Source: Arenibacter hampyeongensis (GTDB lineage Bacteria > Bacteroidota > Bacteroidia > Flavobacteriales > Flavobacteriaceae). Taken from it: 64,000 nt of DNA. Numbering within the stretch: position 1 is the first letter of the stretch; every line of letters begins with the position of its first letter. The DNA is taken from NCBI RefSeq assembly GCF_002909255.1, contig NZ_PIOB01000002.1, positions 496,001 to 560,000 on the forward strand, read 5' to 3'. The translations under genes were made by a program, and so were the position numbers. Below the pieces are notes generated by a model, which saw only the letters and a list, made by a program, of their open reading frames with translations, searched no databases and was not told the origin of the DNA. Positions 11,920-27,535 of this stretch are shown here, piece after piece.

Positions 11920-14900
11920 ATGAGTTTTTTAAATTCGATATTAAAGGTATTTGTAGGGGATAAATCAAAGAAAGATGTCAAGGACCTTCAACCTTTAGTC
12001 AATCAAATAAAATCTTTCGAAGCCGCCTTGGAAAAATTAAGCCACGATGAACTTCGCGAAAAAACAATTCTCTTCAAAAATAAGATAAAGGAAGACTGCA
12101 AAGAGATCAATGAGCAAATAGACAAGTTGCTTAAGGAAGTAAAGGAATCTGCGGACATAGACAAGAACGAGGATATATATGCGGATATAGACAAACTAAA
12201 AGAAGAGATTTATTCCATTTCTGAAAAGACCTTAACGGAAATGTTGCCCGAGGCCTTCGCGGTAGTCAAGGAAACTGCAAAACGATTTACAAATAATGAA
12301 ACACTAACGGTAAAGGCTTCTGAGTACGATAGATTGCTGTCTGGTTCAAAAGATTATGTTACCCTCAACGGCGACCAAGCCATCTGGAGAAATTCATGGG
12401 ATGCTGCCGGGAAGCAAGTTACCTGGGATATGGTGCATTACGATGTGCAATTAATTGGCGGTATAGCCCTGCACCAAGGTAAGATTGCAGAAATGCATAC
12501 AGGAGAAGGTAAAACCTTGGTGGCTACCCTCCCATTGTATTTAAATGCACTAACCGGAAATGGGGCACATTTGGTTACGGTAAACGACTACTTGGCAAAA
12601 AGGGATAGTGCCTGGATGGCTCCTATTTTTGAGTTCCACGGACTTTCAGTAGAATGTATCGACAAACACCAACCTAATTCTGATGGACGAAGGGCGGCTT
12701 ATAACTCAGATATTACCTACGGTACCAATAATGAATTTGGCTTTGATTATCTTAGGGATAACATGGCACATACCCCTAGCGATCTGGTTCAAAGACCACA
12801 CAATTACGCTATAGTGGATGAGGTGGATTCGGTTCTTGTGGATGATGCCCGTACCCCCTTGATAATTTCAGGTCCAGTACCTGAAGGGGATCGTCATGAA
12901 TTTAATGAGCTTAAACCAAAGGTAGGCGATATTGTCAACCTTCAACGAGCCTATTTAACGGGTGTTTTGGCAGAGTCGAAAAAACTAATTGCCGAAGGAG
13001 ATACTAAAGAAGGCGGTTTCCTATTGCTCAGAGTTCATAGAGGCCTTCCTAAAAACAAGGCTTTGATCAAGTTTCTGAGTGAAGAAGGGGTAAAACAATT
13101 ACTGCAAAAGACCGAGAACTTCTATATGCAGGACAACAACCGTGAAATGCCGAAGGTAGATGAAGAACTTTGGTTTGTTATCGATGAAAAAAATAATCAG
13201 ATAGAACTTACCGAAAAGGGAGTGGAATATCTTTCGGGGGATGGCGAGAAGGACTTTTTTGTAATGCCGGATATTGGTAATGAAATAGCCAAAATTGAAA
13301 ATCAAGAGCTTGAGATAAACAAAGAAGCGGAATTAAAGGAGGAATTGTTCAAGGATTTTGCCATAAAAAGCGAACGCATCCATACCATGAATCAGCTTTT
13401 AAAAGCTTATACCCTTTTCGAAAAAGATGTGGAGTATGTGGTTATGGAAAACAAGGTAATGATCGTGGATGAACAAACTGGCCGTATTATGGACGGTCGT
13501 CGTTATTCAGACGGACTGCACCAAGCCATTGAAGCCAAGGAGAATGTAAAGATCGAGGCAATGACCCAGACCTTTGCCACTGTAACCCTTCAGAACTATT
13601 TTAGGATGTACAGCAAACTGGCGGGGATGACAGGTACCGCGGTAACCGAAGCAGGTGAATTTTGGGAAATTTATAAATTGGATGTAATGGAAATTCCTAC
13701 CAATAGGCCCATTGCCCGAGACGACAGACAGGATTTGATCTATAAAACCAAACGCGAAAAGTACAATGCCATAATAGAGGAGGTAACCAAAATTTCACAG
13801 TCCGGTAGACCGGTACTTATTGGTACAACCTCTGTAGAAATTTCTGAATTGCTTTCCCGTATGTTGACCATTAGAAAAGTACCACATAACGTACTTAACG
13901 CAAAATTGCACAAAAAGGAAGCGGACATCGTTGCCGAAGCAGGTAATGCGGGAATAGTAACCATCGCCACGAACATGGCAGGTCGTGGTACAGATATTAA
14001 ATTAAGTACGGAGGTAAAAAAAGCTGGAGGTTTGGCTATCGTAGGTACAGAACGACACGATTCCAGAAGGGTAGACAGACAGCTTAGAGGTCGATCAGGA
14101 CGTCAAGGAGACCCAGGAAGCTCTCAATTCTACGTTTCCTTGGAAGATAACCTAATGCGATTATTTGGATCGGACAGGGTAGCCAAAATGATGGATAAAA
14201 TGGGCTTGGAAGAAGGCGAGGTAATTCAGCATTCCATGATGACCAAATCTATAGAACGGGCGCAGAAAAAAGTTGAGGAAAACAATTTTGGTGTGCGTAA
14301 AAGATTATTGGAATATGATGATGTAATGAACGCCCAAAGGGAAGTGGTCTATAAAAGAAGACGCCATGCCCTACAGGGAGAGCGTTTAAAAGTAGATATT
14401 GCCAACATGATCTATGACACCTGTGAGGTAATTGCGGATACCAACAAGGCTGCCAGTGACTATAAAAACTTTGAATTCGAACTTATAAAATATTTCTCCA
14501 TTACTTCTCCTGTTAGCGAAAACGAATTTGCAAGAATGGGTGTTCAGGAAATGGCAAATGTTATTTATAAAACTGCCTATACCCATTATAAGAACAAAAT
14601 GGAGCGCAACGCTGCCACGGCGTTTCCAGTAATCAAAAATGTGTATGAGGACAATGCCAATAAGTTTGAAAGAATCGTAGTGCCATTTACAGATGGTATA
14701 AAATCCTTGAATGTGGTAACCAATCTTCAGGATGCTTATGAAAGTAATGGAAAACAATTGATAACGGATTTTGAAAAGAATATTTCCCTTGCCATTATCG
14801 ACGATTCATGGAAAACACATTTGCGTAAAATGGACGAGTTAAAACAATCCGTTCAATTGGCCGTACATGAACAAAAGGATCCTTTATTAATTTACAAATT

Positions 14901-15279
14901 CGAAGCCTTTGAACTCTTCAAAGGAATGATCGAAAAGGTAAACAAAGAAATTGTTGCCTTTTTATTCAAAGGGGAGCTACCTAATCAAAGCCCAGAAATT
15001 CAAGAGGCTAGAAATATTCGTAGACCCAAGGAAAATTTGAAGACCTCTAAGGAAGAAATCCCAAACAGTGATGAAATGTCCGCCCGAAGCAGGGCCGTAG
15101 GCCAAAACCAAGGTGGACGGCCGCAGGTAACAGAAACTATTGTAAGGGAAAAAGCCAAAATAGGTAGAAACGAAAGGGTAACCATTAAGAACGTAATGTC
15201 CGGCGAAAGCAAGACCTTAAAATATAAACAAGCAGAGCCATTATTGGGCAAAGGAGATTGGGTGATCATAGAAGAATAA
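11920..15279 (+). CDS. secA: Preprotein translocase ATPase SecA
   Basis: This 1119-residue motor pushes preproteins through SecYEG. Visible are Walker A MHTGEGKTLVATL, Walker B-like VDEVDSVLVDDARTPLIISG, the helicase motif TNMAGRGTDIKL, and RQLRGRSGRQGDPGSS. Bacteroidota-type insertions make it longer than E. coli SecA (901). It lacks the C-terminal SecB/lipid-binding zinc motif (CxCxSGxxxxCHG) and ends instead in KQAEPLLGKGDWVIIEE. It is a monocistronic gene with a strong terminator. Confidence 0.97.
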   Translation: MSFLNSILKVFVGDKSKKDVKDLQPLVNQIKSFEAALEKLSHDELREKTILFKNKIKEDCKEINEQIDKLLKEVKESADIDKNEDIYADIDKLKEEIYSISEKTLTEMLPEAFAVVKETAKRFTNNETLTVKASEYDRLLSGSKDYVTLNGDQAIWRNSWDAAGKQVTWDMVHYDVQLIGGIALHQGKIAEMHTGEGKTLVATLPLYLNALTGNGAHLVTVNDYLAKRDSAWMAPIFEFHGLSVECIDKHQPNSDGRRAAYNSDITYGTNNEFGFDYLRDNMAHTPSDLVQRPHNYAIVDEVDSVLVDDARTPLIISGPVPEGDRHEFNELKPKVGDIVNLQRAYLTGVLAESKKLIAEGDTKEGGFLLLRVHRGLPKNKALIKFLSEEGVKQLLQKTENFYMQDNNREMPKVDEELWFVIDEKNNQIELTEKGVEYLSGDGEKDFFVMPDIGNEIAKIENQELEINKEAELKEELFKDFAIKSERIHTMNQLLKAYTLFEKDVEYVVMENKVMIVDEQTGRIMDGRRYSDGLHQAIEAKENVKIEAMTQTFATVTLQNYFRMYSKLAGMTGTAVTEAGEFWEIYKLDVMEIPTNRPIARDDRQDLIYKTKREKYNAIIEEVTKISQSGRPVLIGTTSVEISELLSRMLTIRKVPHNVLNAKLHKKEADIVAEAGNAGIVTIATNMAGRGTDIKLSTEVKKAGGLAIVGTERHDSRRVDRQLRGRSGRQGDPGSSQFYVSLEDNLMRLFGSDRVAKMMDKMGLEEGEVIQHSMMTKSIERAQKKVEENNFGVRKRLLEYDDVMNAQREVVYKRRRHALQGERLKVDIANMIYDTCEVIADTNKAASDYKNFEFELIKYFSITSPVSENEFARMGVQEMANVIYKTAYTHYKNKMERNAATAFPVIKNVYEDNANKFERIVVPFTDGIKSLNVVTNLQDAYESNGKQLITDFEKNISLAIIDDSWKTHLRKMDELKQSVQLAVHEQKDPLLIYKFEAFELFKGMIEKVNKEIVAFLFKGELPNQSPEIQEARNIRRPKENLKTSKEEIPNSDEMSARSRAVGQNQGGRPQVTETIVREKAKIGRNERVTIKNVMSGESKTLKYKQAEPLLGKGDWVIIEE

Positions 15280-15586: not shown

Positions 15587-16795
15587 ATGCAAATACCCGA
15601 TCAGGATCAGTACCGACTACAGGACAAAATCCGCTTAACCTTAAGGGTCAACTATATCTCCTCTGTCCTCTCCATTGTTTTTGGTATTGTCTGCATATAT
15701 TTTCTCAAAATCACCCAAATAATTCCGACTACTTTTATTGCTTTCGGTGTTCTTAATTTAGTCAATACTGTTTTGTTCCACAAACATAAAACACTAACAG
15801 TAACCTATAATCTTACTTCAGTAATGGCCTTGGCTGCCTCTGTCATTATTACGATATACAGTGGAGGCATTAACAGTCCATTTATTTTTGTGCTGGCCTT
15901 GGTGGTATTTGCCGGTTATATCAGCACAAAGGTTTACGGGAGGGTATATTTAAACTTAAACCTTCTCATTATTATCCTAATTTATTCACAGAGTGTAGCT
16001 GAATTTAATTTTACAGAAAACATGGTCCCTGTTGCAAGCAAAAACATGTTTGCCCTTTTTAGTATTCTTTTCTCTGTTTACCTCTTGGGCGGTGTCATTG
16101 GTAAAAACCTCCTAAAGGCACATAACGAACTACACAAAATCAGAACCGAAAATGAGGCTCGTATTAAGGAGAAAGACACACTTTTAAAAGAAATACACCA
16201 TAGGGTCAAGAACAATCTACAGACGGTATCCAGCTTACTTAGCCTTCAATCCAGAAGTATAGAAGAGCCTAGAATTAAAACTTTGATAAAAAGCAGTCAA
16301 AACAGGGTGATTTCCATGGCCATGGTACATGAAATGTTGTATATGCGACATGATCTGTCAAAAATTGAATATAAGTCCTATGTAGAGGAATTAAGTGATT
16401 ATTTGTTGCGATCCTTTAAGGGCACCGACAACAATATAAGCTTGAGCATAAAAATTCCAGATGTGAAACTGGGGATAGATACAGCTATACCTTTAGGTCT
16501 ATTAATCAATGAGGTAATCACCAATGCCCTCAAGTATGGGATAAAGGATAATGATGAAGGCGAAATTCACATTGAACTTCTAAAATCCAGCAGTAAGGAT
16601 TACATTCTTTATATTGGTGACGATGGTGAAGGCTTTCCAGAGAACATAAGCCATAAGAACACCAAGTCCTTAGGCCTAAAACTTATTCATAATCTGGCCC
16701 GACAGTTAAAAGGGTCCATAAATAGGGATTTGTCGAAAAAAGGCACAAACTACATTGTGAAATTTTCCGATATACAGCATACATTTAAGACCTAA
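15587..16795 (+). CDS. Sensor histidine kinase (HisKA_2 type), orphan
   Basis: The 402-residue protein has about six N-terminal transmembrane helices (residues 20-180), a short coiled linker, a HisKA_2 phosphoacceptor domain (KEIHHRVKNNLQTVSSLLSLQ, with the phospho-His in the HHRVKNN block) and a HATPase_c domain with the N-box LINEVITNALKYG and G-box DDGEGFP. HisKA_2 kinases usually signal through a separate response regulator; none is adjacent. The membrane part has no extracellular sensor domain, so it may sense a membrane or intracellular cue. Confidence 0.9.
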   Translation: MQIPDQDQYRLQDKIRLTLRVNYISSVLSIVFGIVCIYFLKITQIIPTTFIAFGVLNLVNTVLFHKHKTLTVTYNLTSVMALAASVIITIYSGGINSPFIFVLALVVFAGYISTKVYGRVYLNLNLLIIILIYSQSVAEFNFTENMVPVASKNMFALFSILFSVYLLGGVIGKNLLKAHNELHKIRTENEARIKEKDTLLKEIHHRVKNNLQTVSSLLSLQSRSIEEPRIKTLIKSSQNRVISMAMVHEMLYMRHDLSKIEYKSYVEELSDYLLRSFKGTDNNISLSIKIPDVKLGIDTAIPLGLLINEVITNALKYGIKDNDEGEIHIELLKSSSKDYILYIGDDGEGFPENISHKNTKSLGLKLIHNLARQLKGSINRDLSKKGTNYIVKFSDIQHTFKT

Positions 16796-16902
16796 GCTTT
16801 ACAGTGGAATCTCTCCAGATTCTTGATAGAACCCTTTTTCGATTTTCCAAAAATTTTAGAATCGATATTATTTCCTTATAAATTAGGTCAGGGCAAGATG
16901 CC

Positions 16903-17022
16903 TTATAACCTTTCCTGTTCCATAGGTACTTTTAATGGACGAAGAACGCCTTTGGTTTTCGGAAAAACAATGATATAACTAAGACAAAGGAATACGGGAA
17001 CTAAAAGAGCAAATAACATCAT
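16903..17022 (-). CDS. 39-residue one-helix peptide, cassette copy 1
   Basis: The peptide starts with MM and a hydrophobic helix (LFALLVPVFLCLSYIIVF), followed by PKTKG and a short charged tail. It is clearly related to the 38-residue frame at 22054-22170 (shared ALLVP, C, L, Y, VFPK at the same positions). Both lie just downstream of a copy of the 74-79 residue secreted protein on the same strand, here 52 bp after its stop. This repeated context, more than the length, argues that it is a real gene. The function is unknown. Confidence 0.55.
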   Translation of the reverse strand: MMLFALLVPVFLCLSYIIVFPKTKGVLRPLKVPMEQERL

Positions 17023-17074
17023 AGTGGTCCAATTTAGTACTACATATTTGTAGCAGCCGGTTAATAATTGAGTA

Positions 17075-17299
17075 TTAAGCCAATTTAGCTTTGTTTAATT
17101 TGGTAGTGAAAGACAATTCCTTGGTTACCCTAGAGTTTTTGAACATATACAAACGGGCAACACTGTTTTCATTTTTCACGGTAACTTCTGTAACGATACT
17201 CATGGTAACGATCTCAACTTTTTCTACCTTATTACCCTTTTGAGCTTGAGCAGCCAGGCCGATAAAAAGAACAAAGATTAAAGTTAATATGGTTTTCAT
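17075..17299 (-). CDS. Small secreted protein, cassette copy 1 (74 aa)
   Basis: A signal peptide (MKTILTLIFVLFIGLAAQAQ, cleavage after AQA) is followed by a mature chain of about 54 residues ending in VARLYMFKNSRVTKELSF and TTKLNKAKLA. Two more copies lie at 22192-22431 and 26111-26350. This copy is the most diverged: it is five residues shorter in the variable middle (residues 20-48), while both ends are nearly invariant. The mature part is basic and has no cysteines. I know no named family. The conserved C-terminal block suggests a binding function. Confidence 0.75.
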   Translation of the reverse strand: MKTILTLIFVLFIGLAAQAQKGNKVEKVEIVTMSIVTEVTVKNENSVARLYMFKNSRVTKELSFTTKLNKAKLA

Positions 17300-17300
17300 G

Positions 17301-17335
17301 ACTTGCGTTTTGTTATATATATAACTTGGGCAAGT
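17301..17335 (-). promoter_or_regulatory. Leader stem-loop, cassette copy 1
   Basis: In the transcript sense ACTTGC pairs with GCAAGT, which ends one base before the ATG. Inside is the perfect palindrome GTTATATATATAAC (17312-17325). The same arrangement occurs at all three cassette copies, so the structure could hide the ribosome-binding region or be a -7/operator element. Confidence 0.5.
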
Positions 17336-17397
17336 GTATTTTTATAGGTTATGATTCGTTGAAAAACAAGGTTTCTCGTTGAGCTGAAAAATGTCTG

Positions 17398-17427
17398 TTG
17401 AAGTGTAAAAAAATGCCGATAAACGCA
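17398..17427 (-). promoter_or_regulatory. LytTR-like direct repeat, cassette copy 1
   Basis: On the minus strand the sites TGCGTTTAT (17427-17419) and ACACTTCAA (17406-17398) are separated by 12 bp. LytTR-family regulators bind direct repeats of [TA][AC][CA]GTTN[AG][TG] at 12-13 bp spacing. The upstream site matches in 8 of 9 positions, the downstream one more weakly. It lies about 100-130 bp before the start codon. Confidence 0.4.
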
Positions 17428-17648
17428 ACTGGGCCCATAATCCCTTTAGCGATAAAACAAGTATTTAATCGTTTATCACTAACTGCCAATCCCAATAATC
17501 CATATGTTTCTGAGTCAATTGGAGCAAATACGAACTTTGAAAAACATATTATGCATGAACTGTCCTCTACAGGTTACAATATGTATTGCCCTACTATTAC
17601 CAATCCACCCCACTCAATTTAAAAAAATGTTAAAATATTCCATTATAC

Positions 17649-17664
17649 CTAAACGATTGTTTAG
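17649..17664. promoter_or_regulatory. TetR-type operator ahead of its own gene
   Basis: CTAAAC-GATT-GTTTAG is a perfect inverted repeat 23 bp before the regulator start. It overlaps a -7-like box TAGTTTTG (17662-17669), as expected for autorepression. The same core recurs at 18269-18288. Confidence 0.7.
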
Positions 17665-17686
17665 TTTTGTTCCGTAGTTAGGAATT

Positions 17687-18250
17687 ATGGCAAGAAAGAA
17701 GGCATACTTAGAAGAAGAGGTTATTGAAAAAGCCATGCTTTTATTTTGGCGTAAAGGCTACGAATCCACCTCCATGCAAATGCTTGAACAAGAAATGGGC
17801 ATTAACAAGTTTTCCATCTATTCCAGTTTTGGAAGTAAGCATGGTGTTTTTTTGGAAAGCCTAAAAAGCTACAAAAAAAAGGTTAATGGAATTTTTGAAA
17901 AATTTAAAAACTCAACCAATGGTGTTGAGGGCATTAAGGAATTTTTTTATGAATCCATAAATATATGTCATCAAGATGGAAATCAAAAAGGTTGTTTAAT
18001 AAGCAATACTTATAATGAGTTTTCAGAAACTGAAGATGAATTGGTAAAAGGTGAGATGACTTCTTTCATGGACAATCTTAAAACACTCTTGATAGCTAAA
18101 TTGAGTATGGATGGGACTAAAGATGAAAAGACCATAATGAAACAAGCCAATTTTTTATTATTGGCCAAACACGGTTTAGCTACTGCCTCCAGAGTTAATA
18201 GCCCCCAAGAAATTGAAGACTATATTGAAATAACCTTTAAAAATCTTTAA
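17687..18250 (+). CDS. TetR/AcrR family transcriptional regulator
   Basis: This 187-residue regulator has an N-terminal helix-turn-helix (KAMLLFWRKGYESTSMQMLEQEMGI, then NKFSIYSSFGSKHGVFLE) and a ligand-binding C-terminal domain of the type seen in repressors of electrophile and peroxide detoxification genes. Identical palindromes lie upstream of it and upstream of the AhpD-like gene at 18325, so both are probably its targets. The inducer is unknown; the neighbours suggest a reactive aromatic or thiol-stress compound. Confidence 0.9.
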   Translation: MARKKAYLEEEVIEKAMLLFWRKGYESTSMQMLEQEMGINKFSIYSSFGSKHGVFLESLKSYKKKVNGIFEKFKNSTNGVEGIKEFFYESINICHQDGNQKGCLISNTYNEFSETEDELVKGEMTSFMDNLKTLLIAKLSMDGTKDEKTIMKQANFLLLAKHGLATASRVNSPQEIEDYIEITFKNL

Positions 18251-18268
18251 ACATTTTTTTTAATCAAT

Positions 18269-18288
18269 AACTAAACGATTGTTTAGTT
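18269..18288. promoter_or_regulatory. TetR-type operator ahead of the AhpD-like gene
   Basis: AACTAAAC-GATT-GTTTAGTT is a perfect 8+8 inverted repeat, sharing its 16-bp core with the site at 17649. It lies 37 bp before the ATG at 18325. Confidence 0.7.
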
Positions 18289-18324
18289 ATTTTACAACAA
18301 GTGCAACAATTAAAATTTGAAATT

Positions 18325-18888
18325 ATGACAACATTAAAAGTGTACAACATGGAATCTGCTCCTGAAGCCAGCAAACCATTATTGAAAAAATCCCAAAAAG
18401 CTTACGGTATGATACCTGGACTACACGGTGTATTGGCTGGAGCTCCAGAAGTGCTGGATGCTTATCAAAAACTCCATGAATTATTTGTAAACACATCTTT
18501 TAACGAAGAGGAATTAACCGTAGTGTGGCAATCCATAAACGTTGAACACGCATGCCACTATTGTGTACCTGCACATACAGGAATAGCAAGAATGATGAAG
18601 GTAGATAATAGTATAACCGAAGCATTACGTAACGAAACAGCACTTGAAAACACAAAATTAGAGGCTTTACGCACCATGACATTAACAATAGTTCGCAATC
18701 GAGGAAACGTAACTCAAGAAAACTTGGAAACATTCTATGCAGCAGGGTACGAACAAAGACACGTTTTGGAAATTATATTGGGTTTATCACAAAAAGTGAT
18801 CAGTAACTATACGAACCATATTGCAAATACAACAATAGATCCCGCTTTCAAGAGTTTTGAATGGAAAAAAGAGACTGTTGGGATATAA
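18325..18888 (+). CDS. Carboxymuconolactone decarboxylase family (AhpD-like) protein
   Basis: This 187-residue AhpD/CMD-fold protein carries the redox motif HACHYCVPAHTG near residues 71-82, with the CxxC pair and conserved His. Such proteins are peroxidase-like or disulfide reductants induced under electrophile stress. A GTG at 18301 is in frame, but ATG 18325 gives the normal N-terminus (MTTLKVYNMESAPEASK). A TetR operator lies directly upstream and a hairpin follows. Confidence 0.9.
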   Translation: MTTLKVYNMESAPEASKPLLKKSQKAYGMIPGLHGVLAGAPEVLDAYQKLHELFVNTSFNEEELTVVWQSINVEHACHYCVPAHTGIARMMKVDNSITEALRNETALENTKLEALRTMTLTIVRNRGNVTQENLETFYAAGYEQRHVLEIILGLSQKVISNYTNHIANTTIDPAFKSFEWKKETVGI

Positions 18889-18909
18889 GACCATGTATTC
18901 ATAGCTCCA

Positions 18910-18934
18910 AGCCTTCCGTTTAATCGGAAGGTTT
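18910..18934 (+). terminator. Possible terminator after the AhpD-like gene
   Basis: CCTTCCG and CGGAAGG pair around TTTAAT. The T-stretch that follows is short and broken (TTTATATAT), so termination may be partial. Confidence 0.5.
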
Positions 18935-18992
18935 ATATATTACGAAAGAATAGATTTAATAATTTCAATTAGTTTATGAAATTTAAACATAC

Positions 18993-19298
18993 ATGATTAA
19001 ATTAACAGCAACATATTCGAATACCAAGGATTTAAAATTCGCTAAAAAATATTATACCACTAAACATGGTCAGTTACTTTCATTGCTTTTGGCCGATGCG
19101 GTAAAGGCCTCCGATATGAATTTAGGACTTAGCGGAGCCAGTCCTGAGCAGCGTGCAACATATGTAGTCTTTGCCAACCTTACTTTAGAATCCTTGGCGT
19201 TATTTCAACAGTCCTTTGGAGCATATGCCGAAAAGATCCTGGCCGATCTACCCAATTTCACAAAGGTAAGGCCAGTAGTTCAAATTAGTGAGGTTTAA
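18993..19298 (+). CDS. EthD family protein
   Basis: This 101-residue ferredoxin-like alpha/beta barrel protein matches EthD: MIKLTATYSN, then KFAKKYYTTKHGQLL with the conserved histidine, and a C-terminal KVRPVVQISEV. EthD proteins accompany oxidative degradation genes and are sometimes reductases or isomerases. It sits between the AhpD-like and FrnE-like genes, consistent with a detoxification set. The substrate is unknown. Confidence 0.85.
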   Translation: MIKLTATYSNTKDLKFAKKYYTTKHGQLLSLLLADAVKASDMNLGLSGASPEQRATYVVFANLTLESLALFQQSFGAYAEKILADLPNFTKVRPVVQISEV

Positions 19299-19385
19299 TA
19301 AATCTGAACTATTATTGCAATGGAAAAGGAGTTTAAATTTGGATTTTCCCAATATAATATAGATTACACATTAAAGAATAGAATT

Positions 19386-20033
19386 ATGGTCGATAAAATT
19401 AAACTGGATATTGTATCCGATATAGTCTGCCCATGGTGTACCATAGGTTATAAACGTCTGGAAAAAGCAATTGCCGAATTAGGAATAGAAGATAGAATAG
19501 AGTTGGAATGGCAGCCTTTTGAACTAAATCCAAATATGCCAAAAGAGGGTCAGAACGTACAGGAACATCTTACAGAAAAATATGGTTCTGGTTTGGAAGA
19601 CCAAAAGCGTTCACAGGAATATATGGCCGAGGCAGGGGCAGAACTGGGATTTACCTTCGATTACTTTGATAAAATGAAGATAGTAAACACCAGGGATGCG
19701 CATATTTTATTAGAATACGCAAAGGAAAACAACAAACAGACCGAACTAAAAATGCGTCTTGTAGCCGCTTTTTTTAGCGAACGAAAAGATGTTTCCAACA
19801 GGGACGTACTTCTTCAAGAACTAGAAGTAGTGGGGCTTAATGCGGACGAGGCCATAGTTAGACTGGATAGTGACGATGCCCGTAATCAGGTGCAGTCAAA
19901 AGAAACCTACTGGCAAGGTCTTGGGGTTTCCTCGGTACCTACAATGGTATTCAATAAGAAAAGTGCACTTACCGGAGCTCAACCCGTTGATGTCTACAAA
20001 CAAGTGTTAACAGAGTTGCTTGAAGAAAGGTAA
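19386..20033 (+). CDS. DsbA family oxidoreductase (FrnE-like)
   Basis: This 215-residue cytoplasmic thioredoxin-fold protein of the FrnE/2-hydroxychromene-2-carboxylate isomerase group has SDIVCPWCTIGYKRLEKAI with the CPWC redox motif, and the cis-proline loop GVSSVPTMVF. No signal peptide is present. An in-frame ATG at 19320 would add 22 residues without family similarity, so 19386 is preferred. It probably takes part in thiol or electrophile stress together with the AhpD-like and EthD proteins. Confidence 0.88.
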   Translation: MVDKIKLDIVSDIVCPWCTIGYKRLEKAIAELGIEDRIELEWQPFELNPNMPKEGQNVQEHLTEKYGSGLEDQKRSQEYMAEAGAELGFTFDYFDKMKIVNTRDAHILLEYAKENNKQTELKMRLVAAFFSERKDVSNRDVLLQELEVVGLNADEAIVRLDSDDARNQVQSKETYWQGLGVSSVPTMVFNKKSALTGAQPVDVYKQVLTELLEER

Positions 20034-20072
20034 ATACCAATGGCAATTGGGTAATAACCATAAAAAAACTAT

Positions 20073-21314
20073 ATGAAAAGAGTAGTGATTACAGGACTGG
20101 GAGCCTTGACTCCAATTGGAAATTCGGTTGATGAATTTTGGGAAAGTGCCATAAAAGGCAAAAATGGATTCTCAAAAATCACTAAGTTCGATTCTTCTTT
20201 GTTTAAAACGACCTTCGCCGGTGAATTAAAGAATTTCGCCCCCGAGAAATATCTTGATCGTAACGAAATAAAAAGGAGTGATCCCTTTACCCAGTATGCA
20301 CTCTGTTCCGTAACAGAAGCTTTCGGTGATAGTGGTTTAAACTTGGATACAATTTCCCCTTTTGATATTGGAGTAATTTGGGGAACTGGTCAGGGCGGTA
20401 TGAAAACCTTTGAGGATGAAGTGAAGAATTATACCCAGGGTGGTATGAATCCTCGCTTCAATCCCTTTTTTATACCCAAACTTCTTGCTAATATGGCCTC
20501 GGGAATGATTGCCATGAAATTTGGATTAATGGGAATTAATTATACAGCGGTTTCGGCCTGTGCATCTTCAAGTTCTGCCATTATGGATGCATTTAACTAT
20601 ATTCGATTAAACAAGGCCAAAGTTATGGTTACAGGGGGTTCGGAAGCTCCTATAACCGAGGCCTCTATTGGTGGCTTCAGCGCTATGAAGGCTTTGTCTA
20701 CCAGAAATGATGATCCTCAAGGGGCGTCAAGACCATTTGATGAAGATCGGGACGGATTTGTTATGGGCGAAGGAGCCGGCGCCTTGATTCTAGAAGAATT
20801 TGAACATGCCAAAAAACGCGGTGCAAAAATTTACGCCGAAATAGTAGGAGCCGCTATGACCGATGATGCCTACCACATTTCAGCCACACATCCGGAAGGT
20901 ATCGGTGCTATAAAAGCTATGCAATTGGCTATGCAGGAAGCAAAACTTAATTCGGGAGAGATCAATTATTTAAACACCCACACTACCTCTACCCCTGTTG
21001 GTGACTTAAGTGAAATAAAGGCTGTGGCAAAAACCTTCAACAACGAGTTTAACAACCTGAAAATAAGTGCTACAAAATCCATGACCGGGCATTTATTGGG
21101 TGCGGCAGGTGCAATAGAAGCAATTTTATCCATAAAGGCGATTCAATACAATATAATACCACCAACTATTAACACCACAAAGATCGATTCCAGTATTCCC
21201 GCATCCATGCCTATAGTACTTCAGGAGGCCATTGAACATCCTGTAAATGTGGCCATGAGCAACACCTTTGGATTTGGCGGGCACAATGCCACTACTATTT
21301 TTAAAAAAAATTAG
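20073..21314 (+). CDS. fabF: Beta-ketoacyl-ACP synthase II (FabF-like)
   Basis: The 413-residue elongating ketosynthase begins MKRVVITGLGALTPIGNS. Active residues are Cys in VSACASSSS, His in NTHTTSTPVGD (Thr replaces the usual Gly) and His in KSMTGHLLGAAGA. It stands alone, without ACP, FabG or FabZ neighbours, 39 bp after the FrnE-like gene and far from the pigment cluster. It may be a second FabF for a special acyl chain or for stress adaptation of membrane lipids. Confidence 0.9.
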   Translation: MKRVVITGLGALTPIGNSVDEFWESAIKGKNGFSKITKFDSSLFKTTFAGELKNFAPEKYLDRNEIKRSDPFTQYALCSVTEAFGDSGLNLDTISPFDIGVIWGTGQGGMKTFEDEVKNYTQGGMNPRFNPFFIPKLLANMASGMIAMKFGLMGINYTAVSACASSSSAIMDAFNYIRLNKAKVMVTGGSEAPITEASIGGFSAMKALSTRNDDPQGASRPFDEDRDGFVMGEGAGALILEEFEHAKKRGAKIYAEIVGAAMTDDAYHISATHPEGIGAIKAMQLAMQEAKLNSGEINYLNTHTTSTPVGDLSEIKAVAKTFNNEFNNLKISATKSMTGHLLGAAGAIEAILSIKAIQYNIIPPTINTTKIDSSIPASMPIVLQEAIEHPVNVAMSNTFGFGGHNATTIFKKN

Positions 21315-21776
21315 AACCTGCTTTTGTGCAATCATAGCAACCGATTTAAAGACATTTTGAGAAATTGGAATTGAGTAATAATAGGTGATTTTGTAAAAAG
21401 GCTGCCATGCAAGGAAAAAAACTATGCAGCCAGATGGCACATAATTTATTGCAGGACATGCCCTCATCACCACTATGATGGTGGCACTCTATGTACATTT
21501 CCATCCCAATATATTTGCAGGAGTTTTGCTTTTTAAGGTAAACCTCCTTACTTAACGCTATTCTAACTAATATTGACTTTTATTAATCTATCCTCATTTA
21601 AAAAACACAGATAAATAAAGACCTCGAATAACAGAAGGGCTCAAAATCCCCGATACTAGTTTGAAGCTTTTTCATTAACTTGTAACCTCAGCCTACTATT
21701 TAGATAAAACTAAGTGTTAACAGGAACCATCTCCGAGACAGTGGCCTTCTGGATAAACTTATCTTAAACAATCGAT
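21315..21776. other. 462-bp intergenic stretch
   Basis: It lies between fabF and the DUF1059-like gene. Apart from the possible broken small gene at 21407-21555, I see no convincing ORF, terminator or promoter. The minus-strand frame across 21126-21473 overlaps fabF and is not a gene. Confidence 0.4.
21407..21555 (+). pseudogene. Possible frameshifted small-protein remnant
   Basis: From ATG 21407 the frame reads MQGKKLCSQMAHNLLQDMP and soon stops. Shifting by one base continues with LITTMMVALYVHFHPNIF and a short hydrophobic end, with a stop at 21553-21555. Joined, they give a coherent peptide of about 50 residues with one hydrophobic segment. I do not recognise a family. The frameshift reading is inference from composition only. 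Confidence 0.25.
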
Positions 21777-22016
21777 ATGAAAACAATGACATGTAAACAA
21801 TTGGGAGGTGCCTGTAACATGCAATTTCACGCCAATACGTTTGAAGAAATGGCAGAACAAAGCAAAAAGCATGGCATGCAAATGTTTCAGGCCGGCGACA
21901 AAGAGCACATGGCGGCCATGAATAAAATGCAGGAACTCATGAAATCAAAAGATGCCATGACCAAATGGTTCGAAAACAAAAAAAAGGAATTTGAAACGCT
22001 CCCGGACAAATTATAA
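21777..22016 (+). CDS. DUF1059-like small protein
   Basis: This 79-residue soluble protein begins MKTMTCKQLGGACNMQFHA and continues with an amphipathic His/Met-rich helix (HGMQMFQAGDKEHMAAMNKM). The N-terminal CxQLGG.C pattern and length fit DUF1059-type proteins. Function is unknown; the Cys, His and Met residues could bind a metal, which is speculation. Confidence 0.75.
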   Translation: MKTMTCKQLGGACNMQFHANTFEEMAEQSKKHGMQMFQAGDKEHMAAMNKMQELMKSKDAMTKWFENKKKEFETLPDKL

Positions 22017-22053
22017 ATCTTAAACGATTGAATATAACCTATGTGAGTTGGAA

Positions 22054-22170
22054 TTATTTGTCCAGATTCACCCGCTTGTTCAAAGCGCTTGTATTTTCAG
22101 TTGGTTTGGGAAAGACTACCATATAATTCAGACAGATGCAAATGGGGACTAGAAGTGCAATTAATATCAA
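22054..22170 (-). CDS. 38-residue one-helix peptide, cassette copy 2
   Basis: From TTG 22170 the frame gives a hydrophobic helix (ILIALLVPICICLNYMVVF), then PKPTENTS and a basic tail. It aligns without gaps through the helix with the copy 1 peptide at 16903-17022, and its TTG falls exactly where copy 1 has its first ATG. It lies 21 bp downstream of the copy 2 secreted protein on the same strand. Confidence 0.5.
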   Translation of the reverse strand: MILIALLVPICICLNYMVVFPKPTENTSALNKRVNLDK

Positions 22171-22191
22171 AGTGTTTTGTTTTATTAAGTA

Positions 22192-22431
22192 TTAAGTCAA
22201 TTTAGCTTTATTCAATTTGGTAGTGAAAGACAATTCTTTGATTACCTTAGAATTTTTGAACATGTACAAACGGGCAACAGCGTTGTTACCTTTAAAAGCA
22301 ACTTCTTGTTTTGCCGTAGCAGTTACAATACTCATGGTAACAGTTTCAACCTTAACTTCGGCAGCATCGTTTTGAGCTTGTGCAGCTACTCCGATAAAAA
22401 GAACAAAGATTAAAGTTAAAATGGTTTTCAT
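22192..22431 (-). CDS. Small secreted protein, cassette copy 2 (79 aa)
   Basis: Signal peptide MKTILTLIFVLFIGVAAQAQ, then a mature chain of about 59 residues. It differs from copy 3 at only two residues (Ile for Thr in NSKVIKEL, and the last residue Thr for Ala). The DNA is also nearly identical to copy 3, including synonymous positions, so duplication or gene conversion was recent. A GTTATATATATAAC palindrome and a GCAAGT stem lie immediately upstream. No family is recognised. Confidence 0.78.
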   Translation of the reverse strand: MKTILTLIFVLFIGVAAQAQNDAAEVKVETVTMSIVTATAKQEVAFKGNNAVARLYMFKNSKVIKELSFTTKLNKAKLT

Positions 22432-22432
22432 G

Positions 22433-22467
22433 ACTTGCGTTTTGTTATATATATAACTGAGGCAAGT
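22433..22467 (-). promoter_or_regulatory. Leader stem-loop, cassette copy 2
   Basis: In transcript sense ACTTGC and GCAAGT pair around GTTATATATATAAC (22444-22457). The stem ends one base before the ATG. Confidence 0.5.
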
Positions 22468-22756
22468 GTATTTTTACAGGTTCTGATTCGACGAAAAACA
22501 CTGATTCTCGTTAAGCGGAGAAAATCCTGATAAAGTGCAAAAAAATCCCGATGAACGTAACGGGCGTCAAAACCACTTTAGCGTCAAAAAATTGCATTTC
22601 ATCGATCTTTGCGAGTGTTTACTTACCACTTCAGCTCCTCCAATTAATAATCTTCTACACTTAAAATAAAAAAATGATAAAATACTTCAGTCCTGCTTAG
22701 AAGATAATTCCCGATATTTATATCTATTAATCGTCATTTAAAAATGAAATACCCCA
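22468..22756. other. Rest of the intergenic region upstream of cassette copy 2
   Basis: Together with the stem-loop this is 325 bp without a gene. It contains the conserved leader to 22606, followed by about 60 bp of fading similarity to the region upstream of copy 3. No ORF is supported. Confidence 0.4.
22530..22559 (-). promoter_or_regulatory. LytTR-like direct repeat, cassette copy 2
   Basis: The minus-strand site TACGTTCAT (22559-22551) matches the LytTR half-site consensus [TA][AC][CA]GTTN[AG][TG] in all nine positions. A weaker site GCACTTTAT (22538-22530) follows at the canonical 12-bp spacing. Confidence 0.5.
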
Positions 22757-23404
22757 TTGGACCGCTATAAGGAAACATTCGAGACTTGGAACAAAATAGC
22801 ATCCTTATACCAAGACAAGTTTATGGACCTGGACTTGTACGATAAAAGTTATGATCTTATTTGTAAATCGATATCAACAAAAAATGCCCGAATTTTGGAC
22901 ATAGGTTGTGGTCCAGGAAACATTACGAGATATCTTTTATCCAAAAGGCCCGACTTTAACATACTGGGGATAGACGTTGCGCCAAATATGATAAAACTAG
23001 CCGAAAAGAACAATCCAACTGCCACATTCAAGATTTTGGACTGCAGACAGATCCGCGAACTAAACACCCTATACGATGGAATAGTCTGTGGTTTTTGCCT
23101 GCCCTTTCTTTCACCGGCAGATTGTACTCAATTAATTGCCGATTCCCAAAGATTGTTATCGAACAATGGATTACTCTATTTAAGTTTTGTAGAGGGTGAC
23201 CCCAATAAATCGGACTTTAAAGTGGGTAGCAATGGAGACAGGGTCTATTTCCATTTCCACAAATTGGACACATTAAAAAAAAATCTTACTCTATATTCAT
23301 TTGAAGAACCTGAGGTTTACTACATAAATTACGAGGGAACGGCCTCCCCAATAGAGAAACATACGGTCCTCATAAGTAGAAAAAATCCACACCAAAGGGA
23401 CTAA
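22757..23404 (+). CDS. Class I SAM-dependent methyltransferase
   Basis: This 215-residue Rossmann-fold methyltransferase has motif I ILDIGCGPGNITRYLL near residues 46-61 and the acidic GIDVAPNMIKLA. The substrate is unknown. The start is a TTG, because an in-frame stop lies only four codons upstream and the sequence from TTG (MDRYKETFETWNKIASLY) looks like a complete N-terminus. It lies 75 bp before arsR and is not ArsM, since it is too short and lacks that family's cysteine set. Confidence 0.85.
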   Translation: MDRYKETFETWNKIASLYQDKFMDLDLYDKSYDLICKSISTKNARILDIGCGPGNITRYLLSKRPDFNILGIDVAPNMIKLAEKNNPTATFKILDCRQIRELNTLYDGIVCGFCLPFLSPADCTQLIADSQRLLSNNGLLYLSFVEGDPNKSDFKVGSNGDRVYFHFHKLDTLKKNLTLYSFEEPEVYYINYEGTASPIEKHTVLISRKNPHQRD

Positions 23405-23446
23405 TTAAAAGAAAAAAGTAAAAATCATTGGTTAGAATAAATATTC

Positions 23447-23462
23447 ATCGTAATATTGCGAT
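23447..23462. promoter_or_regulatory. Probable ArsR operator
   Basis: ATCGTAATATTGCGAT is a near-perfect inverted repeat (14 of 16 positions symmetric), 17 bp before the arsR ATG. ArsR/SmtB regulators bind such AT-rich palindromes. A partial copy (ATCGCAATAA) lies in the gap after arsR near 23838. Confidence 0.6.
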
Positions 23463-23479
23463 ATACAAATTAAAGAATT

Positions 23480-23812
23480 ATGGGGTTAGCTAAAACAGAA
23501 ATATTTTCAGATCAACAAAACCAAATTGCCATTTTTGCCAAAGCTTTTGGGCATCCGGCCCGAGTGGCTATTCTACAGCATCTTTTTAAAATAGATACCT
23601 GTGTATGTGGTGATCTTGTGAATGAAATTGGATTGGCCCAACCTACCATTTCACAACATTTAAAAGAATTGAAACTCTTGGGACTCATCAAGGGTAGTGT
23701 TGAGGGAACCAGCGTCTGCTATTGTATAAACACTGAAAAATGGCTGGAAATGAAAGAGATTATAAAACAATTTCTAAATCTGGACATAACCAAACTCGGA
23801 GATTGCTGCTAA
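23480..23812 (+). CDS. arsR: ArsR/SmtB family metalloregulator
   Basis: This 110-residue winged-helix repressor has FGHPARVAILQHL, the metal-binding motif CVCGDLV, recognition helix AQPTISQHLKELKLLGLI, and a C-terminal Cys pair. It should release DNA on binding As(III) or Sb(III). A palindromic operator lies directly upstream. It heads the operon arsR, DUF6428, LMW phosphatase-type arsC and acr3. Confidence 0.92.
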   Translation: MGLAKTEIFSDQQNQIAIFAKAFGHPARVAILQHLFKIDTCVCGDLVNEIGLAQPTISQHLKELKLLGLIKGSVEGTSVCYCINTEKWLEMKEIIKQFLNLDITKLGDCC

Positions 23813-23859
23813 AAAATTTGAATTCATTAATCGCATAATCGCAATAAACATATAACAAA

Positions 23860-24333
23860 ATGAAACTATCACAAGTAAAAACAATTTTAGGAACTTTGGA
23901 TACCATTGCATTCCAATTGCCAAATGGTAAACTAGTGCCCAATCATTTTCACGTTACTGAAGTAGGTAAAATCACCAAGAACTTTATAGACTGTGGCGGA
24001 ACGGTTCGTAAAGAGGAAGTTGTAAATTTTCAGTTATGGGATTCCATTGACTATGACCACCGACTACATCCAGAGAAATTGGTCCATATCATAGAACTAT
24101 CGGAAAAGGTATTGGAAATTGGAGATTTGGAAATTGAAGTAGAATACCAAGGAGAAACCATTCAAAAATTTGGATTGGACTTTGACGGCACCAACTTTCT
24201 TTTGGCCACCAGGCATACAGATTGTTTGGCCAAGGACAACTGTGGGATTCCGACAGAAAAACCAAGAATAAAATTATCCCAATTACAAGAGACTTCGGCA
24301 GATAGTTGCACTCCCAACTCCGGATGCTGTTAA
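23860..24333 (+). CDS. DUF6428 family protein in the arsenic operon
   Basis: This 157-residue protein (MKLSQVKTILGTLDTIAFQLP, with the motif NHFHVTEVGKITKNFIDCGG) matches DUF6428, which in Bacteroidota occurs in arsenic operons. Several cysteines cluster at the C-terminus (DCLAKDNCGIP, then DSCTPNSGCC) and could bind arsenite. The function is not established. It is 47 bp from arsR and 30 bp from the phosphatase gene. Confidence 0.85.
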   Translation: MKLSQVKTILGTLDTIAFQLPNGKLVPNHFHVTEVGKITKNFIDCGGTVRKEEVVNFQLWDSIDYDHRLHPEKLVHIIELSEKVLEIGDLEIEVEYQGETIQKFGLDFDGTNFLLATRHTDCLAKDNCGIPTEKPRIKLSQLQETSADSCTPNSGCC

Positions 24334-24363
24334 ACCATATAACCGCACTATAAATCTTATACA

Positions 24364-24996
24364 ATGACACCCGTAAAAACTAAGATCTTTGACCAAATAG
24401 ATCAGGCTATCGCTAAACTAAGTATTGATAATATAAGCGAGGAACGTAAAGAAATTTTGCAGCCCCTTGCCGAATATATACAGGCCAAAACAGATACCCA
24501 AGAACTCATAAGAATTAATTTTATTTGCACCCATAACTCCAGAAGGAGTCACTTATCCCAAGTTTGGGGGCAAACAATGGCGTTCTATTTTAACGTAAAG
24601 AATGTACAGTGCTACTCGGGCGGAACAGAATCCACTGCCTTATTTCCAATGGTGGCAGAAACCCTAAAAAATACTGGATTCCAAATAGAAACAATTTCGG
24701 AAGGGAAAAATCCTATTTACAGCATAAAATATGCCGAGAATGAACCCGCCGTAATCGGTTTTTCAAAGAAGTTGGATGCTGACTTTAACCCTAAATCGGA
24801 ATTTGCAGCGGTTATGACCTGTTCACAGGCCGATGGGGGTTGTCCGTTCATAGCTGGTGCCGAAAAGCGTATCCCAATAACTTTTGAGGATCCTAAGGTG
24901 TATGACAATACCCCGCAGCAGACTGAAAAATATCGGGAAAGAAGCCTTCAAATTGCAACAGAATTACGATACGTATTTGCCCAAATAAAATCATAA
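24364..24996 (+). CDS. arsC: Low-molecular-weight phosphatase-type arsenate reductase
   Basis: This 210-residue protein has a helical N-terminal extension and an LMW-phosphatase fold. The catalytic loop FICTHNSRRSHLSQ has the C(x5)R signature and FEDPKVYD is the general acid loop. In this operon it most likely reduces arsenate to arsenite using thiols. Such proteins are often called protein-tyrosine-phosphatase, and a phosphatase role is not excluded. It lies 3 bp before acr3. Confidence 0.85.
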   Translation: MTPVKTKIFDQIDQAIAKLSIDNISEERKEILQPLAEYIQAKTDTQELIRINFICTHNSRRSHLSQVWGQTMAFYFNVKNVQCYSGGTESTALFPMVAETLKNTGFQIETISEGKNPIYSIKYAENEPAVIGFSKKLDADFNPKSEFAAVMTCSQADGGCPFIAGAEKRIPITFEDPKVYDNTPQQTEKYRERSLQIATELRYVFAQIKS

Positions 24997-24999
24997 TTT

Positions 25000-26052
25000 A
25001 TGGCCCAAATCAAAAAATTAAGCTTCCTGGACAGTTATCTTACCTTATGGATTTTTTTGGCAATGGCTTTGGGCGTTGGTATAGGCTATTTTGTACCTGC
25101 CTTTCCCAAAATCATCGATGGTTTTAGTAGTGGAGCAACCAACATACCCATTGCCATTGGACTCATCCTAATGATGTATCCCCCTTTGGCAAAGGTAGAC
25201 TACTCACTTTTGCCCAAGGTTTTTAAAAACACCAAGATTTTATCCATTTCCCTAATACTGAATTGGATTGTTGGACCAATTTTAATGTTTGCCCTGGCCA
25301 TTACTTTTCTAAGGGACTATCCGGAATATATGGTTGGATTAATCCTAATTGGTTTGGCACGATGCATTGCCATGGTACTTGTTTGGAACGACCTAGCGGA
25401 AGGAAACAGCGAGTACGGTGCCGGTCTGGTAGCCCTGAACAGCATTTTTCAGGTATTTGCCTACAGTTTTTATGCCTGGATCTTTATAACTATACTTCCA
25501 CCTTATTTCGGATTTGACGGTGCCATCGTAGATATTTCTATTGCCACCATTGCGGAAAGTGTAGCCATTTATTTGGGAATACCGTTTGCATTGGGATTTT
25601 TAAGTAGATTGATTTTGGTGCAGCTAAAAGGGGAAGAATGGTACTCCAACACATTTATCCCGTACATATCGCCCATAACTTTGATTGCGCTTTTGTTTAC
25701 GATAGTAGTCATGTTTTCCTTAAAAGGCGAATTGATAGTGGAGATACCAATGGACGTATTAATTATAGCAGTTCCCTTGTTGATCTATTTTACACTGATG
25801 TTTATCATAGGTTTTTTCCTTACCAGAGCCATGGGAGCGGAATACGACAAAACGGCTTCCGTTGCATTTACGGCTGCAGGAAACAATTTTGAATTGGCCA
25901 TAGCGGTAGCCATTGCTGTTTTTGGTTTGGATTCTGGTCAGGCATTTGCCGGAGTCATTGGGCCCTTAGTGGAAGTACCTGCCTTAATTCTATTGGTACG
26001 CGTAGCCTTTGGGTTACGTAAAAAATATTATCCAATGGCCAAAGTTCAATAG
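25000..26052 (+). CDS. acr3: ACR3 family arsenite efflux transporter
   Basis: This 350-residue integral membrane protein has about ten helices. ACR3 features are the [11 protein letters not shown] segment, the helix with [16 protein letters not shown] (conserved Cys) and [20 protein letters not shown]. It exports arsenite from the cytoplasm and completes the arsenic operon. Cassette copy 3 begins 58 bp downstream on the opposite strand, and no terminator separates the two. Confidence 0.94.
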
Positions 26053-26110
26053 AGGCACCAAAGGTTTGGGAAATTCTGTATTTAATTGCTAATGATGCTT
26101 AGGCTGAAGA

Positions 26111-26350
26111 TTAAGCCAATTTCGCTTTATTCAATTTGGTAGTGAAAGACAATTCTTTGGTTACCTTAGAATTTTTGAACATGTACAAACGGGCAACAGC
26201 GTTGTTACCTTTAAAAGCAACTTCTTGTTTTGCCGTAGCAGTTACAATACTCATGGTAACAGTTTCAACCTTAACTTCGGCAGCATCGTTTTGAGCTTGT
26301 GCAGCTACTCCGATAAAAAGAACAAAGATTAAAGTTAAAATGGTTTTCAT
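26111..26350 (-). CDS. Small secreted protein, cassette copy 3 (79 aa)
   Basis: Signal peptide and mature chain are as in copy 2, with two substitutions. Unlike copies 1 and 2, no intact one-helix peptide follows; the 58 bp between its stop and acr3 hold only a short match (TTTCCCAAACC) to the copy 2 peptide gene, possibly a remnant. The neighbouring arsenic operon converges on it. Confidence 0.78.
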   Translation of the reverse strand: MKTILTLIFVLFIGVAAQAQNDAAEVKVETVTMSIVTATAKQEVAFKGNNAVARLYMFKNSKVTKELSFTTKLNKAKLA

Positions 26351-26351
26351 G

Positions 26352-26386
26352 ACTTGCGTTTTGTTATATATATAACTGGGACAAGT
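26352..26386 (-). promoter_or_regulatory. Leader stem-loop, cassette copy 3
   Basis: The outer arm is ACTTGT here, which still pairs with GCAAGT through a G-U pair in the transcript, so the structure is kept despite the change. The inner GTTATATATATAAC is unchanged. Confidence 0.5.
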
Positions 26387-26773
26387 GTATTTTTCTAGGT
26401 TCTGTTTCGACGAAAAGCACTGTTTCTCGTTAAGCGGAGAAAATCCGGATAAAGTGCAAAAAAATCTCGACGAACGTAACGGGCTCCAAAATCACTTTGA
26501 CGATAAAAAATTGCATTTCATCGATTGACGTAAGTATATACTTACAGTTCCAAGTGCTCCCATTTTTAATTATAGGCCTTTAAAATAAGAAATTGATCTT
26601 ATTCGGTAATCCAAAATTGGAGTATATCACCCTTCCTTTTGTCCAATATTCGGAATTTTATAATTATTTGGGTTTAACATTGCCGCCCAATTTCTAGGAC
26701 TATGAAAAGTGAATTAGGCCGATCCGCAGTTGGATATATTTTAAAAGTATTTTTTCATTCTTACTTTTGTAAT
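26387..26773. other. Intergenic region between cassette copy 3 and a methyltransferase gene
   Basis: It contains the conserved leader to 26525, then about 250 bp without a convincing gene. The open frame that extends the methyltransferase to 26702 is judged to be upstream read-through. Confidence 0.4.
26449..26478 (-). promoter_or_regulatory. LytTR-like direct repeat, cassette copy 3
   Basis: The minus-strand site TACGTTCGT (26478-26470) fits the LytTR half-site consensus in all nine positions. GCACTTTAT (26457-26449) follows after 12 bp, as in copy 2. Confidence 0.5.
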
Positions 26774-27535
26774 ATGAAAAAAGCCATGGACCGTTTTTCC
26801 ATTCAATCAAAAACTTATAAAGACTTTAGGCCAAGCTACCCAGAGGCTTTGTATAAGTATATATATTCCTTCTGTGATGCCATGCATAGTTGTTGGGACT
26901 GTGGCACAGGTAACGGCCAGGTGGCGGCGGTGCTATCCAAATCCTTCGATCAGGTTTTTGCCACCGACATAAGCCAGCAACAAATAAAAAATGCCATTCT
27001 TAAACCAAACATACAGTATAGTGTTCAAAGAGCCGAACGGACTACATTTCCAGAACAGTATTTTGATTTGATCACAGTGGCCCAAGCTGCACATTGGTTT
27101 GATCTTCCCAGCTTCAATATGGAAGTTAACCGAGTCTTAAGGCCCAATGGTATTATCGCTATTTGGGGCTATGGACTTCTAAAAATAAATCCAGAAATAG
27201 ATGCCCTTGTGAATCATTTTTATCAACACATCATAGGGACATATTGGGACAAGGAAAGGGGTCACATAGATAACAACTACAGTACCATACTATTTAATTT
27301 TAATGAAGTGGACATCAAGGAAAACTTTAAAATAGAAGCCAAATGGACAATTGACCAGTTAAAGGGTTATTTTAATTCCTGGTCAAGTGTACAAAATTAT
27401 AAAGACAAGAATAAAGGCGACAATCCTGTAGAACAACTTATCATGGATTTAGCTCCTATATGGAATACAACAAGGCAACAAATAACTTTCCCCATCTTTA
27501 TACGCATGGGCACCCTAAAAAGTAATCAAATTTGA
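26774..27535 (+). CDS. Class I SAM-dependent methyltransferase
   Basis: This 253-residue methyltransferase has motif I SCWDCGTGNGQVAAVL, FATDISQQQI and the segment VAQAAHWFDLPSF, typical of the family related to trans-aconitate or UbiE-like methyltransferases. The substrate is unknown. An upstream in-frame ATG at 26702 adds 24 residues without similarity; ATG 26774 gives MKKAMDRFSIQSKTYKDFRP, the usual start. Confidence 0.85.
   Translation: MKKAMDRFSIQSKTYKDFRPSYPEALYKYIYSFCDAMHSCWDCGTGNGQVAAVLSKSFDQVFATDISQQQIKNAILKPNIQYSVQRAERTTFPEQYFDLITVAQAAHWFDLPSFNMEVNRVLRPNGIIAIWGYGLLKINPEIDALVNHFYQHIIGTYWDKERGHIDNNYSTILFNFNEVDIKENFKIEAKWTIDQLKGYFNSWSSVQNYKDKNKGDNPVEQLIMDLAPIWNTTRQQITFPIFIRMGTLKSNQI

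Follow-up and report, generated by a model that had tools for sequence, protein, structure and literature searches.

A widespread family of small, probably exported peptides, apparently undescribed, with an unusual operator array in Arenibacter and other Flavobacteriaceae

Three minus-strand genes in a 64,000-nucleotide stretch of the Arenibacter hampyeongensis genome (assembly GCF_002909255.1, contig NZ_PIOB01000002.1, positions 496,001 to 560,000; hereafter the window) encode members of a real, widespread exported-peptide family that has an unusual operator array upstream of its genes and is apparently undescribed. Copy 1 (17075..17299, 74 residues), copy 2 (22192..22431, 79 residues) and copy 3 (26111..26350, 79 residues) were defined by open reading frame (ORF), alignment and genome search. 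They stand in the ORF list exactly where an earlier sequence-only reading of the window (the original prediction) had placed them, and form the only family of 300-nt direct repeats in the window. There are two residue differences between copies 2 and 3; copy 1, at 81% identity, is five residues shorter in the middle. Both coding ends are conserved and the middle varies, and a three-way alignment has a single gap column across the 165 nt 5' of the ATG, in agreement with the near absence of indels reported there. All copies have a near-invariant signal peptide (assigned to the Sec type by eye), a variable middle, which is short in copy 1, and a basic C-terminal motif (SVARLYMFKNSRVTKELSFTTKLNKAKLA in copy 1). 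The C-terminal consensus, RLYxxKNSxVxKxLSFxTKxNKAKLA, is strongly basic, and the last 29 residues carry a net charge of +6, +6 and +8 in the three types present in this genome.

A protein search of the same genome gave five copies at E<=2.5e-26, the next match having an E of 0.82. A model of the upstream block (leader model R1) gave five matches at E<1e-21, each 5' of one of the five peptide genes, and the next (E 5e-5) lies antisense on one of the same five leaders. Since protein and leader model both find the five copies with a wide gap in E to the next match, chance is excluded for the family. Weak leader matches beside ordinary genes of this genome were judged to be chance. Copies 4 and 5 are a tandem pair encoding identical proteins beside msrA on another contig, which the original prediction did not include.

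Leader and gene travel together. Across 100 genomes, the same 12 gave strong leader matches (best E<=1e-16) and strong peptide matches (E<=1e-10), which bears out the expected co-occurrence. Note that R1 was partly built from genomes that were searched, so strong hits arise partly by construction, although absence elsewhere does not. One genome, G089, is intermediate in both searches and has one peptide ORF in its stretch. In eleven further stretches, nine leader matches were checked for an ORF behind them: six precede a signal-peptide ORF, whose C-terminal motif has disappeared or diverged in two cases, and three (L195, L201, L202) precede none. One other leader lies at a contig end.

The original prediction called the upstream block a conserved regulatory leader. 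The conserved element is there, but its sequence is that of an operator/promoter for the most part rather than of an RNA leader, a short hairpin before the ATG excepted. Six TTTATCGA-like sites, an array that had not been part of the prediction, make up the apparent operator: A and B are inverted and C to F are direct, in steps of 19-21 nt (about two helical turns) apart from a 33-nt step between B and C (about three turns). In the window the minus-strand operator/promoter blocks span 17300..17481 for copy 1 (sites A 17463-17471, C 17417-17426, D 17397-17405, F 17355-17364), 22432..22613 for copy 2 (A 22596-22604, D 22529-22537, F 22487-22496) and 26351..26532 for copy 3 (A 26515-26523, D 26448-26456, F 26406-26415). 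Removal of similar, short or low-scoring sequences from 168 distinct members left 52 non-redundant leaders, among which the spacing is A-B 20 (46) or 21 (6), B-C 33 (47) or 32 (5), C-D 21 (51), D-E 19 (52) and E-F 21 or 20 (51). An alignment of 51 rows, consisting of 48 of these leaders and the three from the window, has nine invariant columns; the four omitted (L124:52-187, L034, L052:1265-1400 and L130) fitted poorly or were truncated.

The sites were scored against the 9-mer LytTR consensus. At a threshold of >=7/9, site C matched in 46/52 leaders, D in 43/52 and B in 35/52, compared with about 29% of mononucleotide shuffles. Published LytTR sites consist of 9-bp repeats separated by spacers of 11-13 bp, and in many cases they stand about 10 bp upstream of the -35 box (PMC6193735); several LytTR promoters control bacteriocin or peptide genes (PMC6193735, PMC4227749). 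Promoters under AgrA or HdrR/BrsR control and the Bacteroides LRS-like operons resemble the present block in that short direct repeats with a period of about 21 nt precede the promoter; they differ in that here there are six sites in two orientations instead of one pair, no linked LytTR gene was found and sites A, E and F are off consensus. By sequence, LytTR-type binding fits three of the six sites, with an AraC-type protein as the alternative.

Weaker, partial leader matches recur in genomes that have no strong peptide matches. Behind 11 of them lie eight long ORFs that run off the end of the stretch (377-433 residues seen) and three ORFs of 149-167 residues. Pfam comparison of 10 of these 11 proteins, which we call class 2, found PKD domains in five and SprB repeats in two above the cut-off and in a third below it. 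The strict class-2 pattern occurs in 10/149 genomes, but neither in this genome nor in the other 11 with strong leaders. The operons of SprB-type gliding adhesins in Flavobacteriaceae have the same array design, with A and B inverted and C and D direct at 21 nt, but encode large adhesin-like proteins behind a long 5' region rather than small peptides. Small exported peptides and gliding-type adhesins of marine Flavobacteriaceae may share a single cis-regulatory code. The same-design arrays before PKD/SprB-repeat adhesin-like genes were seen in stretches L174-L178, L181-L185 and L187 from other Flavobacteriaceae. In most of these the array is followed by a conserved 5' region (ATGACCCCAAATC..., an inverted repeat, CCCTC), which may hold a short leader ORF.

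All 18 genomes of the genus that were compared, this one included, carry the peptide family. Of 22 genomes from outside the genus, one was a carrier, from another genus of the same family; 15 of the 22 belonged to other families of the order, and none of those was a carrier. A profile run over 397 genomes of the family matched 196 at E<=0.01. When 38 chosen genomes were searched with a profile of the motif alone, in contrast, strong matches came only from this genome (5) and G089 (4); the weak family-wide matches therefore appear to be mostly signal-peptide likeness and were dropped in favour of the count at E<=1e-10, which is 70/397 genomes and 41/237 genera (counted by hand from the profile table). 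In an order-level draw, 10/296 genomes matched at E<=1e-6, all 10 within the same family. No genome had more than 9 matches, and a plasmid search gave no match to the peptide family.

Substitution patterns indicate purifying selection, strongest on the C-terminus and the signal peptide: pN/pS is 0.20 for the signal peptide, 0.37 for the middle and 0.16 for the C-terminus (555 non-independent pairs). Synonymous codon choice hardly varies between genera at positions 6, 7 and 9-14 of the signal peptide (GTT for 126/128 Val and CTT for 134/137 Leu, for example), whereas codon 8 is mixed. In a tree, copies 2 and 3 (support 99/91) and copies 4 and 5 (100/97) of this genome are within-species sisters, and four other species have such pairs; some copies are homogenised within species. 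Copies from three other species fall into one group with copy 1, and these have the same TetR neighbour cluster as copy 1. Among the remaining pairs, some lack resolution in the tree and others are not joined within their species.

The original prediction had taken the genes for a paralogous secreted-peptide system with conserved ends and a variable middle, which alignment and genome search support, and had recognized no described family. The host peptide matched none in Pfam, NCBIfam, phrog or PADLOC comparisons: no curated Pfam or NCBIfam family fits the peptide above its cut-off, and the 92 mature peptides used, out of 96, gave no Pfam or NCBIfam match to a T9SS C-terminal sorting domain. 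The best match to PDB sequences had an E of 0.033, which is no convincing solved relative. No description of the family was recognized in the titles or abstracts listed by literature searches, and a search with the motif letters returned 0 records. AlphaFold modelling of the mature peptide, with 92 sequences, gave a mean pLDDT of 59.8, a pTM of 0.23 and one short helix, and on this evidence the mature peptide is probably unfolded on its own.

Phages also carry the peptide core. The Maribacter phages Colly_1 and Molly_1 to _5 (eight records) encode a homologue of 40% identity (E 3e-4), which in Colly_1 is 65 residues long, has the signal peptide and the motif, and is overlapped by a 57-residue ORF with a hydrophobic stretch. 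A second homologue of 66 residues, on contig L206, has TTTATCG-N14-TTCATCG upstream, followed by TATATTTG; this repeat pattern was chosen after the sequence had been seen and occurs in 0 of 200 shuffles. This homologue matches phrog_26162, a family of unknown function, at E 1.6e-5, whereas the host and Colly_1 peptides do not match phrog_26162 at E<=0.01. On contig L211 a 37-residue form that has no signal peptide lies upstream of ORFs that we take by recognition to be of packaging type, and the two-repeat pattern was not found upstream of it. In all, three phage types carry the C-terminal motif, two with a signal peptide and one with a host-like 21-nt pair upstream. The full R1 model gave no match on six phage stretches, only two-repeat patterns being present. 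In Colly_1, pairs of CCGTTYAACGTTT 21 nt apart precede the peptide gene, a matrixin gene and one further place (a control pattern gave 1 match); with pairs at several places, they may be a promoter type of the phage itself. At L203 3299-3332 and MT732450 120500-120533, the CCGTTYAACGTTT pair stands before the matrixin metalloprotease gene and about 280 nt before Colly1_186 (one copy mismatched).

Some of the host genes are followed by a second small gene, which the original prediction did not include. A 39-residue single-span mini-protein with a VFPKTKGVLRPLKV motif is encoded on the minus strand at 16903..17022, 52 nt after the stop of copy 1, and a 38-residue homologue with a TTG start follows copy 2 (22054..22170, minus strand); none was seen downstream of copy 3. 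A search with a two-sequence profile that allowed ATG starts only found 28 single-span mini-ORFs of 36-48 residues, 26 of which lie 16-74 nt 3' of a peptide stop, so that a mini-ORF follows at least 26 of 163 peptide genes. Their pN/pS of 0.41 (94 pairs) indicates purifying selection.

Marine flavobacteria have several nearly identical copies of the gene with a shared control block, and phages of at least three kinds have the core as well; this suggests an unrecognized peptide that acts at the cell surface, with a motif kept by hosts and phages yet lacking a curated function in the libraries searched. Sequence establishes the family, the site array, its linkage to the genes, purifying selection, homogenisation of some copies and the presence in phages; LytTR identity, core promoter position, co-induction, export and the envelope target are inferred. 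The reading we favour, with a likelihood just short of even, is that a cationic peptide is exported and acts at the envelope, its copies being co-regulated and raising its dosage under control of a LytTR-type regulator on the operator array. Each unit would consist of one gene, isolated on its strand, that encodes a small exported peptide. A LytTR-type response regulator would bind the six-site array cooperatively and recruit RNA polymerase, and the hairpin before the ATG, if transcribed, could stabilize the message. All copies would fire together and sum to a high dose, signal peptidase I would free a mature chain of about 55-60 residues, and the basic C-terminus would act at the cell envelope or surface, with some units also encoding the single-span mini-protein. 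The link to the surface comes from the same operator design before PKD/SprB-repeat genes. Several observations weigh against this reading. Sites A (16/52), E (12/52) and F (8/52) did no better than shuffles in the LytTR test, and a 21-nt step also suits AraC-type proteins. The genome has 21 LytTR genes, with 0 in the window and none tied to the peptide family, and no regulator gene was recognized from the neighbourhood of the peptide loci. TAnnTT[TA], a possible -7 box near -27, is present in 14/52 leaders, none of them of the window type, and overlaps the proximal hairpin, so that the core promoter can be placed only tentatively. The motif without a signal peptide on L211 ill suits a purely envelope role, and low pLDDT can reflect a thin alignment.

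An extension of this reading, which we consider rather unlikely, is an envelope module that shares its operator design with SprB-like adhesins and was captured by at least three phage lineages; as at least one phage form has the host-like 21-nt pair upstream, the surface programme of the host would then switch on the phage copy, and the envelope would be remodelled, either against competing phages or to permit release. Phages are known to encode small exported proteins with anti-phage or superinfection-exclusion roles, and the homologues seen in three phage types (two of them with a signal peptide) would suit a peptide by which the host blocks phage entry and phages exclude their rivals. However, PADLOC matched none of 8 host and phage proteins, the host loci are conserved rather than spread by mobility and one phage form has no signal peptide, which makes exclusion an unlikely main role. 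It is improbable that the peptides are pheromones or other cell-cell signals sensed by a neighbouring HisKA_2 kinase that feeds back on the operator array. They are multi-copy, putatively secreted and operator-controlled, and a HisKA_2 kinase cluster is present in 15 of the 73 loci compared, but the other 58 have no such kinase in the stretch compared, some copies are homogenised, and the C-terminus is the most constrained part and near-identical between genera, which leaves little variation in specificity. About as improbable is a bacteriocin-like toxin, a cationic exported peptide for which the mini-protein would provide immunity. The charge of the C-terminus, the constraint on the mini-ORF and its place shortly after the peptide stop, and the ORF overlapping the Colly_1 gene all speak for such a pair. 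Class II bacteriocins with their immunity proteins offer a parallel, since in some units here a small membrane protein likewise accompanies a small peptide that is cationic and exported. Here, however, the signal peptide is of the Sec type (by eye), the peptide is conserved, present in all 18 genus genomes, not diversifying and matched by no family, and the mini-protein was not found after most copies in a search that gives a lower bound, so that an immunity gene does not appear to be always adjacent.

We disfavour, as very improbable, a last alternative in which the upstream block works chiefly at the RNA level, as a structured 5' leader that controls translation or stability. It draws on the proximal hairpins just 5' of the ATG (about 17301-17335, 22433-22467 and 26352-26386, minus strand), which were also absent from the original prediction. 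In the 42 nt directly 5' of the ATG, folding is better than in dinucleotide shuffles (mean z -2.07, 25/52 leaders below -2), compared with a mean z of -0.29 for the two neighbouring blocks (4/52 and 5/52 below -2). Arenibacter-like leaders have a GTTAT/ATAAC stem inside an outer CTTGC/GCAAG stem. Among 12 type-I leaders (11 distinct), the only type used for the count because type-II hairpins aligned too poorly, three of 12 pairs change on both sides, in one sequence each, a result matched by 2/500 shuffles. Conservation also extends into the synonymous sites of the signal-peptide codons. On the other side, unbroken stems are only modestly enriched (28/52 versus 20 and 22), and folding z is similar on the two strands (-1.48 and -1.37 for 30 leaders; likewise for the window leaders). 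The site array folds no better than its surroundings and has 0 predicted base pairs across 51 sequences, a weak test since column-shuffled controls also gave 0. Rfam had no match in 16500-27000. In other genera, GCGTTTTATATATATAAAACGC-like forms of the hairpin have arms that are changed yet complementary; the element is a hairpin or palindrome that may act as RNA or as DNA.

The genes had been described as dispersed within one accessory region. Two of the five copies lie elsewhere, and gene order recurs across genera, which together with presence in all 18 genus genomes and the negative plasmid search rules out a mobile or accessory cassette. A composite order, assembled from overlapping partial orders in named loci with no single stretch spanning all of it, runs MsrA, peptides, TesA/YbbA/YbbP, peptides, HisKA_2 kinase, Gfo/Idh, kinase, SecA (most names are from Pfam, SecA by recognition). 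In Arenibacter this locus is split: SecA, kinase and copy 1 are on the window contig, and MsrA and copies 4 and 5 are on the other. The anchor of the conserved order in the window is the gene at 11920..15279 (plus strand), the product of which we take to be SecA from its sequence, not from a family search. A HisKA_2 sensor kinase gene (15587..16795, plus strand) is convergent with copy 1, and loci from Zobellia, Pseudozobellia, Kriegella and Aurantibacter also have this kinase cluster close to peptide genes. Neighbour families lie on the opposite strand upstream of peptide genes in 31/43 cases and downstream in 33/44, compared with 158/567 and 176/585 in a control set that was not de-duplicated; hence the peptide genes are isolated units. 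The opposite-strand neighbours also raised the idea of a cargo island, for which no recombination sites were found.

The function of the peptide is open to testing, since hosts are in culture (Maribacter, Zobellia, Arenibacter) and the phages Molly and Colly have been isolated. Between copies 2 and 3 of the window (23480-26052) there is an arsenic-type cluster of genes that are presumably ArsR-like and ACR3-like (named by recognition), and the same ORF clusters are present in ten other Arenibacter loci.

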